Assembly: GCF_007859635.1 (NCBI RefSeq)
Contig: NZ_CP042306.1
Coordinates: 3,339,026-3,403,025 of the forward strand
Direction: 5' to 3'
Length of the DNA stretch: 64,000 nt
Source: Sphingomonas panacisoli
GTDB lineage: Bacteria; Pseudomonadota; Alphaproteobacteria; Sphingomonadales; Sphingomonadaceae
The notes below the pieces were generated by a model. The model searched no databases, was not told the origin of the DNA, and saw only the letters and a list, made by a program, of their open reading frames with translations. How positions within the stretch are numbered: the stretch's first letter is position 1; every line of letters starts with the position of its first letter. A program made the translations under genes and the position numbers. Positions 28,835 through 54,657 of this stretch are shown here, piece after piece.

Positions 28835-28981
28835 TCCTCCCCATCGCAGATGGGGAGGGGGACCGCGAAGCGGTGGAGGGGCGTGAGCGCAGCGAGCGTG
28901 GCACTATCCTCGCCGCTGCGCGGCTGCGGCCCCTCCGTCAGCGCTGCGCGCTGCCACCTCCCCAAGCTCGCTTGGGGAGGA
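28835..28981. repeat. Palindromic dispersed-type repeat (LOG/crtI junction)
   Basis: Two arms, 28835-28882 and 28929-28981, are related by inverted complementarity: both carry a CTCCCCA...TGGGGAG hairpin at their outer end and a GGAGGGGC/GCCCCTCC motif at the inner end, with a 46-base centre. The outer arm contributes GGAGGA immediately before the LOG start codon. The arms diverge enough to look like an old inverted-repeat element of the kind widely scattered in sphingomonads. Confidence 0.75.
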
Positions 28982-46137: not shown

Positions 46138-47094
46138 ATGACCGACGCCGCGATCGTGATCGACCAGCTCTCCAAAGTTTATGCAGGAGGCAAGCAGGCG
46201 CTCGACAACGTCTCGTTCGACGTGCCGCGGGGCAGCATCTTCGGGCTGTTGGGTCCCAACGGCGCCGGTAAGTCGACGCTGATCAACATCCTGGCGGGGC
46301 TGGTCAACAAGACCGGCGGCAAGGCGACGATCTGGGGCTTCGATATCGACGAGCATCCCAGGAACGCGAAGGCGTCGATCGGCATCGTCAATCAGGAGAT
46401 CACCTTCGACCCGTTCTTCACGCCGGTCGAAACCCTCGACATCCAGGCCGGCCTGTACGGTGTGCCCAAGGCCAAGCGCATCTCGATGGAGCTGCTGCGC
46501 GCGGTGCATCTCGAGGACAAGGCGAAGGCCTATGCGCGCACGTTGTCGGGCGGGATGAAGCGGCGGTTGATGGTGGCGAAGGCGATGGTCCATTCGCCGC
46601 CGGTCCTCGTCCTCGACGAGCCGACCGCTGGGGTCGATGTCGAACTCCGCCAGCAACTGTGGACCTACGTCAAGGAACTCAACGCGCGCGGCGTGACGAT
46701 CGTGCTGACCACGCACTATCTCGAGGAAGCCGAGCAATTGTGCGACCGCATCGCGATCATCAACCATGGCCGCGTCATCGCCAACGAACCGACCCGCGAT
46801 CTGGTCGGGATGGCGCAGGAAAAGGTCGTCGCGCTGACGGTGGACCGCGACGTGACCGAACCGCCCACCGCGGCGTGTTTCCAGAAGGTCGAGCTGAAGG
46901 GCGAGCGCGTCCTCGAAATCACCTATCGCAAGGATCAGGCGAATGCCGGCCAGGTGCTCGCGGCGGTGCAGGGCGACGGCTACGGCATCGTCGATGTCTC
47001 GACCAAGGAGCCCGATCTGGAGGACGTGTTCCTCAACCTGACCCGTTCTTCTCCCCTCCCGCTTGCGGGAGGGGTTGGGGGTGGGCCTGCGTAA
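46138..47094 (+). CDS. ABC transporter ATP-binding protein (YadG-like)
   Basis: A 318-residue cytoplasmic ATPase of an ABC transporter. Walker A is GPNGAGKSTLINILAG (about 39-54), the signature is TLSGGMKRRLMVAKAM, and Walker B is VLVLDEPTAGVDVELRQ. The C-terminal stretch after the domain (DQANAGQVLAAVQGDGYGIVDV) is usual for YadG-like proteins that pair with a YadH permease. No permease gene lies near; the following gene is the DUF559 element. The last 15 residues (RSSPLPLAGGVGGGPA) are encoded by the left inverted repeat of that element, so the original C-terminus has been replaced. Confidence 0.9.
   Translation: MTDAAIVIDQLSKVYAGGKQALDNVSFDVPRGSIFGLLGPNGAGKSTLINILAGLVNKTGGKATIWGFDIDEHPRNAKASIGIVNQEITFDPFFTPVETLDIQAGLYGVPKAKRISMELLRAVHLEDKAKAYARTLSGGMKRRLMVAKAMVHSPPVLVLDEPTAGVDVELRQQLWTYVKELNARGVTIVLTTHYLEEAEQLCDRIAIINHGRVIANEPTRDLVGMAQEKVVALTVDRDVTEPPTAACFQKVELKGERVLEITYRKDQANAGQVLAAVQGDGYGIVDVSTKEPDLEDVFLNLTRSSPLPLAGGVGGGPA
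47049..47089. repeat. Left inverted repeat of the DUF559 element
   Basis: Starts TTCTCCCCTCCCGCTTGCGG and ends GTGGGCCTG. It encodes the last residues and TAA-adjacent end of the ABC ATPase gene. The internal palindrome centres at 47062-47063. Confidence 0.9.
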
Positions 47095-47477
47095 TGGAAT
47101 GGCGCGCTCGCGATACGACGCGTGCGCGAGAACTGCGCAATCAGGCGACGCCACAAGAACGCACATTGTGGCGGTACCTAGGTGCGAGCAAATTAGGGCA
47201 TAAATTCAGCCGCCAAATGCCCATTGGCCCTTTCTTCGCCGACTTTGTCTGTCGCGGTGCAAAACTCGTTGTCGAACTGGATGGATACTCGCACGATCTG
47301 TCAGTCGAGGCTGACGCCCGGCGCGACCGCTACATGCAAGAGCAGGGATTTCAGGTGCTCCGGTTCAGCAACGAGGATGTGACCACGAATGTCGAAGGTA
47401 TCGTGAACACTATCGCCGCCGCACTTGCTAACAGGCCCCCCCCCAGCCCCTCCCGCAAGCGGGAGGGGAGAAGATGA
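47094..47477 (+). CDS. DUF559 (Vsr/endonuclease-like) protein
   Basis: A 127-residue protein of the DUF559 family, related to Vsr-type and PD-(D/E)XK nucleases. NQATPQERTLWRYL (16-29) and GHKFSRQMPIGPFFADFVC are the usual opening; putative metal residues are Asp50 and the E-L-D pair Glu61/Asp63 in KLVVELDGYSHDL, with a final QGFQVLRFSNEDV (85-97). Residues 114-127 (RPPPSPSRKREGRR) are encoded by the right inverted repeat. The ATG overlaps the ABC stop (TAATG), and its TGA overlaps the nadB ATG. Substrate is unknown; DUF559 proteins are proposed nucleases. Confidence 0.9.
   Translation: MEWRARDTTRARELRNQATPQERTLWRYLGASKLGHKFSRQMPIGPFFADFVCRGAKLVVELDGYSHDLSVEADARRDRYMQEQGFQVLRFSNEDVTTNVEGIVNTIAAALANRPPPSPSRKREGRR
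47432..47472. repeat. Right inverted repeat of the DUF559 element
   Basis: Starts CAGGCCCCCCCCCAGCCCC and ends GAGGGGAGAA. Supplies the DUF559 C-terminus and a GGGGAGAAG ribosome-binding site ahead of nadB (ATG 47474). The internal CCCCTCCCGC-AA-GCGGGAGGGG palindrome is intact. Confidence 0.9.
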
Positions 47478-49054
47478 CCCACCAATCCGACGTCCTGATC
47501 ATCGGCTCCGGCGCCGCCGGGCTGACCGCGGCGCTGAACCTCGCCGAGCGGTTCAAAGTCACCGTGCTCGCCAAGGGTGGGCTCGCCGAGGGATCGACCG
47601 CCTGGGCGCAGGGCGGGATCGCGGCGGTGCTCGAACCCGGCGACACGTTCGAAAGCCATATCGAGGACACGATGATCGCCGGGGCGGGGCTCAACGACCG
47701 TCGCACCGTCGAGTTCGTCGTCGAAGGCGCACCGCGCGCGATCGAGCGGCTGATCGAACTGGGCGTACCGTTCAACAAGGAAGCGGGCGACCTGCATTTG
47801 ACGCGCGAGGGCGGGCACAGCCATCGCCGCATCGTGCACGTCAACGACGCGACCGGCTGGGCGGTGCAAGAAGCGCTGCTCACCGCCGCGCGCGCGCACG
47901 CCAACATCACGCTCGTCCCGGACAAGGTCGTGATCGACCTCGCCACCAGTCGCCATGAGGAACGCTATTCGGGCGCGGGCAATGTTTGGGGCGTCTATGC
48001 CGTCGATCGCGCGAGCGGGCGCGTCGAGCTGTTCACCGCCAACGCGACGATCCTGGCGACGGGCGGGGCGGGGCGCACGTACCTGTTCTCGACCGCGCCG
48101 CGCGGGGCGACCGGGGACGGCATCGCGATGGCGTGGCGCGCCGGGTGCCGCATCTCGAACATGGAGATGATGCAGTTCCACCCGACCTGCCTTTACAATC
48201 TGGAGGTCAAGAACTTCCTGATCACCGAAGCGGTGCGCGGCGAGGGCGGGCAACTCAAGAACCCCAGGACCGGGCATCGCTTCATGCCCGATGTCGATCC
48301 CCGGGCCGAACTCGCCCCGCGAGATATCGTCGCGCGCGCGATCGACGCCGAGATCAAGCGCGACGGCCTGGACTACGTCCATCTCGACATCAGCCATATG
48401 GGCGCCGAGTTCGTCACGCACCACTTCCCGACGATCTACGAAAAGCTGCTCGGGCTCGGCATCGACATGACGAAAGAGCCGATCCCGGTCGTTCCCGCGC
48501 AGCATTATACGTGCGGCGGGATCATGATCGATCTCGACGGGCGGACCGATCTGCCGGGGCTCTATGCGGCGGGCGAGTGCACGCAATCCGGGCTGCACGG
48601 CGCCAATCGCCTCGCCAGCAACTCGCTGCTCGAATGCTTCGTCTTCGGGGAAAGCGCGGCGAAACACATCAACGCGCATTGGGATGCCCTGCCCGCGCCG
48701 CCGCCGATCCGCGCGTGGGACGAGAGCCGTGTCACCGATTCGGACGAGGAAGTCGTGATCCAGCAGAACTGGACCGAAATCCGCCGCTTCATGTGGAATT
48801 ATGTCGGCATCGTGCGGACGACGAAACGGCTCGAACGTGCCGCGCACCGCATCAAGATGCTGACCGACGAGGTCGGCGATTATTACGGCCATTTCCGCGT
48901 GACGCCCGACCTGATCGAACTGCGAAATCTGCTCCAGACCGCGGACCTAATCGTGCGCTCGGCACTCCACCGCCACGAATCGCGCGGGCTGCATTACACG
49001 CTCGATTATCCCGAAACGCTGCCGGTCGCGGTCGATACGATCCTGGTTCCGTGA
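47474..49054 (+). CDS. nadB: L-aspartate oxidase
   Basis: A 526-residue FAD enzyme that oxidises L-aspartate to iminoaspartate, first step of bacterial NAD synthesis. N-terminal FAD loop VLIIGSGAAGLTAALNLAE (6-24), then KGGLAEGSTAWAQGGIAAVL, the substrate segment GGHSHRRIVHVND, QFHPTCLYN, and the C-terminal YTCGGIMIDLDGRTDLPGLYAAGECTQSGLHGANRLASNS (seen in parts) are the family signatures. The ATG overlaps the DUF559 stop, so translation is coupled to the inserted element; its ribosome-binding site comes from the inverted repeat. nadA/nadC are not adjacent. Confidence 0.97.
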   Translation: MTHQSDVLIIGSGAAGLTAALNLAERFKVTVLAKGGLAEGSTAWAQGGIAAVLEPGDTFESHIEDTMIAGAGLNDRRTVEFVVEGAPRAIERLIELGVPFNKEAGDLHLTREGGHSHRRIVHVNDATGWAVQEALLTAARAHANITLVPDKVVIDLATSRHEERYSGAGNVWGVYAVDRASGRVELFTANATILATGGAGRTYLFSTAPRGATGDGIAMAWRAGCRISNMEMMQFHPTCLYNLEVKNFLITEAVRGEGGQLKNPRTGHRFMPDVDPRAELAPRDIVARAIDAEIKRDGLDYVHLDISHMGAEFVTHHFPTIYEKLLGLGIDMTKEPIPVVPAQHYTCGGIMIDLDGRTDLPGLYAAGECTQSGLHGANRLASNSLLECFVFGESAAKHINAHWDALPAPPPIRAWDESRVTDSDEEVVIQQNWTEIRRFMWNYVGIVRTTKRLERAAHRIKMLTDEVGDYYGHFRVTPDLIELRNLLQTADLIVRSALHRHESRGLHYTLDYPETLPVAVDTILVP

Positions 49055-54634: not shown

Positions 54635-54636
54635 CT

Positions 54637-54657
54637 CCCCTCCGTGAAAGGGAGGGG
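54637..54657. repeat. Short hairpin after the PBP gene
   Basis: CCCCTCC (54637-54643) pairs with GGAGGGG (54651-54657) across a 7-base loop, immediately after the PBP stop. No T-run follows. It resembles the CTCCCC-type hairpins at 28835 and 47049 and may be a fragment of the same repeat type or a weak terminator. Confidence 0.5.

Follow-up and report, generated by a model that had tools for sequence, protein, structure and literature searches.

A DUF559 nuclease gene framed by inverted palindromic repeats in Sphingomonas panacisoli, a probable copy of a REP/REPIN-like system

The DNA considered here, called the window below, is the whole stretch of 64,000 nucleotides at positions 3,339,026 to 3,403,025 of contig NZ_CP042306.1 of Sphingomonas panacisoli. 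Between an ABC-transporter gene and the gene of an FAD-dependent enzyme, it holds a short open reading frame enclosed by two inverted repeats, which are referred to as arms. The features of this locus, together with two further repeats of the window, are as follows.

46138..47094, plus strand: upstream ABC-transporter open reading frame (context), its last codons and stop lying in or beside the left arm
47047..47089, plus strand: left arm of family A (A1 form), found by inverted-repeat search, a palindrome followed by the inward G-rich tail TTGGGGGTGGGC
47053..47074, no strand: left 22-nt palindrome CCCCTCCCGC-TT-GCGGGAGGGG, found by motif search
47094..47477, plus strand: DUF559 gene of 127 aa, a Vsr/EDxHD-like PD-(D/E)XK nuclease, keeping the residues invariant in 61 aligned members
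47432..47474, minus strand: right arm, an inverted copy of the left arm, encoding the C-terminal 15 or so residues of the DUF559 protein
47447..47468, no strand: right 22-nt palindrome CCCCTCCCGC-AA-GCGGGAGGGG, found by motif search
47474..49054, plus strand: downstream gene of an FAD-dependent enzyme (context), with Pfam FAD_binding_2 and Succ_DH_flav_C
28836..28980, no strand: gene-free inverted pair, its left half belonging to family E and its right half on the F-family plan
54635..54657, no strand: single tail-less palindrome CTCCCCTCCGTGAAAGGGAGGGG, resembling family G

An earlier note on this DNA had described arms of 41 bp with 39 of 41 positions matching; their inverted arrangement holds, and by inverted-repeat search they measure 43 nt each, are 95% complementary and lie 342 nt apart. 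Each consists of a perfect 22-nt palindrome on the outside and a G-rich tail on the inside. The palindrome, rightly noticed before in both arms, occurs with up to three mismatches at exactly these two places in the window, where 0.01 would be expected from 100 dinucleotide shuffles, and as single-stranded DNA the left arm forms a hairpin of -11.5 kcal/mol (z -2.6). The reading frame between the arms is a member of DUF559 (PF04480, E 1.3e-34), as the note had recognized; its placement of the gene wholly within the 342-bp core does not stand, since the frame continues into the right arm. The lower GC content claimed for the core is real (0.567 against 0.666 in the window), and 2.4% of segments of 342 nt are equally low. 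The start codon of the DUF559 gene overlaps the stop of the ABC-transporter frame (TAATG), and its stop overlaps the start (ATGA) of the downstream gene, which we take to be nadB-like. Gene and arms make up a single compact unit of about 430 bp, in which the gene, as read in the window, lies outside any intron or frame of another gene. The hairpins near 28835 and 54637, earlier considered the same repeat as the arms, belong to other repeat families. The left hairpin of the pair at 28836-28980 is identical to an arm of another DUF559 gene of the same genome (G000:755394). The palindrome at 54635-54657 resembles the solo palindromes seen at some of the orthologous sites, discussed below, where an element is absent.

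In the 3.40-Mb genome to which the window belongs, the window palindrome is found at 10 places with up to two mismatches, and these form five inverted pairs, two of them around DUF559 genes and three with a total length of 96-130 nt. Eight DUF559 matches are present in this genome. A simple explanation of the arms would be that they are ordinary bidirectional terminators or mRNA stabilizers of the DUF559 gene, as is suggested by the folding of the left arm and by the position of the arms between genes. The same sequences occur as gene-free pairs throughout the genome, however, which disfavours this reading, and the arm families follow the clade of the protein, as described below; we therefore regard it as highly improbable. 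The search of Rfam returned a single match far under the cut-off, to an unrelated family, which we take as chance. A match to the Y1/HUH transposase family (PF01797) was found neither in this genome nor in 34 of the 37 genus members, and a RAYT acting in trans was rejected as the source of the repeats because the genome itself has no Y1_Tnp match.

DUF559 is present in 45 of 61 related genomes and in 36 of the 37 belonging to the genus. From these genomes 145 DUF559 genes were taken with their flanks, 143 of them with enough flank and two with too little, and each was given the score of the best inverted repeat within 350 bp of the gene. The median score is 31 for the 143 genes. Control segments displaced by 550-900 bp from the same genes give a median of 10.5, a 99th percentile of 16.3 and a maximum of 18.0 (n=138), and thus disfavour chance matches of low complexity. 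When flanks from different genomes are paired at random, the median is 11.5 (n=288), with a 95th percentile of 25.8 and a maximum of 52; such high scores across genomes are expected if the repeat families are common to several species. Taking a score of at least 18 as the mark of arms, and so defining them by score rather than by a hairpin plan read by eye, 120 of the 145 genes have them. Of 139 genus hits 132 were used, five weak rows being left out (second pieces of broken genes or matches in very long reading frames, one of them outside the genus) and others being absent from the hits listed; 115 of these 132 genes have arms and 17 do not by this score, and in other genera of the order the count is 5 of 13. 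The expectation that DUF559 genes are flanked by palindromes more often than other places is thereby borne out, the distance-matched segments being without them.

The arms fall by eye into families of two plans, namely a palindrome with a G-rich tail (A, B, C and G) or two successive hairpins (D, E and F). To compare them with the protein, we used a DUF559 tree built on 107 columns, in which many forks are weak, and 53 site groups into which the genes were placed by their host flanks; the arm label is unambiguous for 121 of 142 genes. On the tree the arm family changes 16 times among these 121 genes, against at least 74 times in 200 shuffles, and, when each site and family is represented by a single gene (55 genes), 14 times against at least 31. 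Protein and arm distances are moderately correlated when the genes compared differ in both site and genome (rho 0.37 over 6,042 pairs, the highest of 500 permutations being 0.084), and the correlation is weaker inside one genome (rho 0.21, 188 pairs). In 76 of 115 cases the nearest protein at a different site and genome shares the arm family, where 9% would be expected. Clade G is an example, with 13 genes spread over 13 site groups; by the patterns used, 12 of the 13 carry family G arms, on one side or both. Arm families thus track the protein tree and recur at unrelated sites, which indicates that the arms follow the gene more closely than its location, and the agreement between arms of different copies anticipated in the earlier note takes the form of an arm family tied to a protein clade.

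Five site groups each have DUF559 in 9 to 17 species, and one of the five shows several arm families. Such retention fits a gene that keeps its repeats moving better than it fits a freely jumping element. Site group 10 is one host locus at which DUF559 units of three arm families are found (G008:C2:3993877, G010:C1:2992476 and G024:C1:168018). In several site groups the DUF559 gene is flipped between species.

Copies of the repeats without the gene were surveyed by counting exact motifs of families A, C, E, F and G in the 61 genomes, with patterns written once the arms had been seen. A genome has between 0 and about 200 of these motifs, which, one exception apart, are confined to the genus that supplied the patterns; reversed patterns gave 0, and once 1. 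Subtracting two arms for each cognate gene in the 37 genus genomes leaves the gene-free motifs, whose medians in genomes with and without the cognate clade are 21 and 0 for A, 14.5 and 0 for C, 22 and 0 for G, 44 and 1 for F, and 18 and 2 for E. The one-sided p values of this enrichment, from 1.7e-3 to 2.1e-5, are rough because the species are not independent. In about 0.86 Mb examined with a second pattern set, 80 of 135 oriented arms stand as inward pairs of the same family, with a median of 103 nt.

Some genomes hold orphan repeats, that is, at least 20 motifs of a family and no gene of the cognate clade: G015, G021, G026 and G031 for A, G020 for C, G024 for E, and G009, G015, G025 and G028 for F, to which G008 and G018 are added by the tree only. 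The largest count of all, 194 G-family motifs, is that of G018, which has five DUF559 matches and none of the G clade. G025 was rejected as an orphan for E, since the tree places one of its genes in the part of E. Orphan repeats are likewise reported for RAYT, and are attributed, in the excerpt considered, to an enzyme gene that was lost or changed (PMC3686654). These orphans are what one would look for if some other factor spread the hairpins and DUF559 genes were merely caught between two of them, and of two long inward pairs caught by the patterns one is without DUF559, although these patterns missed the window's own pair and the count is therefore insensitive. Against such hitch-hiking stand the tracking of the DUF559 clade by the arm family and the lack of a RAYT match in the genome of the window, and we consider it very unlikely.

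The protein itself has the traits of a nuclease. D50, E61, D63, H67, D74 and R77 are invariant in the 61 aligned members, and E22 is nearly so. Structures matched by its AlphaFold2 model, with a mean pLDDT of 82.9, are the endonuclease-like protein 3hrl and the catalytic domain of I-Bth0305I, a homing endonuclease (PDB 3r3p; Foldseek TM 0.78 on the target, profile E 1.6e-5). Vsr and PvuRts1I are weaker matches; sequence hits in PDB with E above 0.5 were taken as chance. The window DUF559 thus has both the predicted fold and the conserved acidic and histidine residues of a Vsr/EDxHD-like PD-(D/E)XK nuclease, EDxHD being the label that we assume for this branch. The median dN/dS of the DUF559 domain over 30 pairs is 0.15, by which these genes look constrained.

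VsrA of Caulobacter is described with a DUF559 domain and is proposed to act in very-short-patch repair (PMC12907096), and YcjD was earlier assigned to PD-(D/E)XK, its profile finding Vsr (PMC1189080); in the excerpts of these sources the family is given a proposed role in repair or a fold and no link to repeats. One may therefore suppose that a Vsr-like DUF559 keeps the repeats intact or tolerable and moves nothing, in keeping with the constraint on the genes and the conservation of some loci. A maintenance role of this kind fails to account for the repeats that bound the gene itself, and for the arm family that recurs with the protein clade at unrelated sites, and it appears to us quite unlikely.

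The state of individual sites was compared between species about 90% identical, in which 40 of 75 elements could be mapped, shared elements being counted in both directions. Opposite these 40 elements there are 20 of the same family, four of another family, 10 sites where the element is absent, and six without a motif but of similar length. Nine of the 'absent' sites were aligned: four hold one palindrome made of the two outer halves, one holds a palindrome of another family, and the remaining four show no palindrome or align poorly. A solo palindrome may be the scar of an excision or collapse, or it may be a target. At the G034 site of a C-type DUF559 unit, A-type pairs fill the same spacer in two close relatives. 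For the window copy no exact empty site was found. In at least 10 of the 30 relatives listed, the ABC gene is closely followed by the next gene, with no DUF559 in the stretch listed; in others, the closest relatives among them, different genes adjoin the ABC gene, and all 30 have diverged too far for the junction to be read exactly. The unit of the window has terminal inverted repeats, short pairs are present in one species and absent in another, and no target-site duplication could be read.

If the solo palindromes are targets, a homing variant comes into view, in which a free-standing DUF559 cuts single palindromes that existed before, repair copies the gene or the pair in, and the short pairs are internal deletions. 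The predicted fold, which resembles I-Bth0305I, speaks for it, as do the four of nine 'absent' sites with a palindrome from two outer halves and the occupation of one spacer by different families in related species, site group 10 among them. Collapse between two palindromes gives the same footprint, however, and the sites are unpolarized. Furthermore, tail-less solos are a minority: 11 single palindromes were listed by script in the same 0.86 Mb, at least four of which show a tail on reading, against the 135 oriented arms. The variant is also silent on how the first palindromes spread, and we judge it unlikely. I-Bth0305I itself is like DUF559 in the predicted fold and the profile match; the PDB name of the former is 'mobile intron protein', whereas DUF559 genes are free-standing between inverted hairpins and occur in several diverged copies per genome.

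The association reaches well beyond the genus. A wider set was composed of 30 best-hit loci, 40 further high-scoring hits, which are not random, and 21 named loci, 89 of the 91 having enough flank. Arms are found at 49 of the 89 and lacking at 40, while displaced controls give 0 of 89. Taken by group, outside the genus sample, arms frame 5 of 6 loci from the family, 23 of 38 from the class, 14 of 28 from beyond it and 7 of 17 among those named; two Granulosicoccaceae are mislabelled in these counts as 'phylum', and the 17 named loci include Sphingomonas and one Ruminococcaceae. In the class of that Ruminococcaceae genome (G380), which we take to be Clostridia, DUF559 occurs in 53 of 196 genomes, and 15 of 26 best-hit genes there have arms and 11 have none (controls 0 of 19; loci L305 and L331-L334 were left out). 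Many of these arms follow the two-hairpin plan of family F, with a hairpin, TGGC or TGTC, a second hairpin, and GACGGA or GACTGA. In G380 two broken DUF559 copies (L303 and L304) still have two-hairpin arms around them, and one of the two lies directly upstream of a gene which, named from its sequence, is presumably mutS-like. Six loci from a plasmid collection were also inspected, with arms at those of Deinococcus, S. parapaucimobilis and Sinorhizobium, and low scores at Synechocystis (12.5) and at two E. coli loci (9 to 9.5). On pSymB of Sinorhizobium meliloti (L359) DUF559 lies inside unusually long inverted arms, with an alignment score of 104 and more than one hairpin.

Escherichia coli K-12 has a relative of its own in ycjD (L361:3383-3736), whose product is a DUF559 protein (E 1.4e-49) and is 46% identical to that of the window; a control genome of E. 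coli gave no PF04480 match in the genome profile search despite YcjD, and absence in that search is thus no proof. Both proteins enter the right-hand repeat with their C-termini. The 3' end of ycjD is inside a repeat, a second copy of which follows about 170 bp downstream, and the gene is without a left arm. With a permissive cut-off, a 40-nt form of this repeat is found in 4,988 of 5,426 E. coli genomes, the median number of places per genome being 18. The fepB-entC spacer has an inward pair of it, and two other spacers that were read have outward pairs. We suppose that it may be the E. coli repeat called box C.

The closest known systems are those of RAYT and REPIN (REPtron, TnpA-REP), for which excerpts of the literature describe an enzyme gene flanked by cognate palindromic repeats, inverted doublets throughout the genome, an abundance linked to the enzyme with orphans, and joint diversification (PMC3116915, PMC3686654, PMC8266576). 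The DUF559 system resembles them in every one of these respects: the gene is flanked by its cognate repeat, the repeats occur genome-wide as inverted doublets, their abundance is linked to the enzyme, and enzyme and repeat diversify together. It differs in the enzyme, a PD-(D/E)XK-type nuclease instead of the HUH tyrosine transposase that a RAYT is, in the absence of a GTAG-type tag before the palindrome in the arms of the window and of its genome, which were read directly, in the inward G-rich tail or second hairpin of the arms, and in the position of the gene inside the inverted pair. Having no HUH domain and no GTAG tag, it does not belong to the RAYT systems. MITEs and TIRtrons are, in the part of the source considered, short repeats, themselves non-autonomous, that accompany an enzyme gene whose ends match theirs (PMC3733652); short gene-free repeats and an enzyme gene with matching ends are likewise found for DUF559, whereas its unit has no tyrosine transposase and no target-site duplication is established. 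In the titles, abstracts and excerpts of the literature covered, which include few subscription journals, DUF559 is not linked to palindromic or inverted repeats or to REP, and the link may have been described elsewhere. Arrangements of this kind are known, and the enzyme class is new.

From these comparisons, the unit of the window is probably one copy of a REP/REPIN-like system with DUF559, of the Vsr/EDxHD PD-(D/E)XK kind, as its associated enzyme. The anatomy of the unit, the conserved active-site residues, the co-inheritance of arm and protein, the link with copy number, and the presence or absence of pairs between related species are demonstrated. The element analogous to RAYT/REPIN that the earlier note proposed, with DUF559 as its enzyme, finds support in the arms at 115 of 132 genus genes, in arm families tied to clades, in the gene-free copies, and in the lack of a RAYT in the genome concerned, its mobilization being the part that we infer. 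The DUF559 protein most likely recognizes arms of its own family when these form a hairpin or cruciform, and would nick or cut in or beside the palindromes. Such cutting would release or copy the segment between two inward-facing arms, which would then be joined into new intergenic sites; the usual cargo would be the gene-free pair of about 100 nt, while the gene would move rarely and often be kept at one locus. Hairpin cleavage, the joining step, any host partners and DUF559 as the cause of the spread are all inferred.

In many bacterial genomes the spacers are full of short palindromic repeats, for which RAYT is the candidate enzyme in the literature considered. On balance we lean towards the view that DUF559 defines a second, HUH-independent class of REP/REPIN systems, old and widespread (Pseudomonadota, Clostridia and Deinococcus), and lies behind a large part of the G-rich palindromic repeats found between bacterial genes, among them the one beside ycjD of E. 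coli. If this is true, a second and unrelated enzyme family would explain repeat families without RAYT, DUF559, a domain of unknown function, would gain a role, and the REPIN-like lifestyle would have arisen more than once. As E. coli K-12 has both ycjD and the repeat at the 3' end of that gene, it offers a laboratory strain in which to test the idea.
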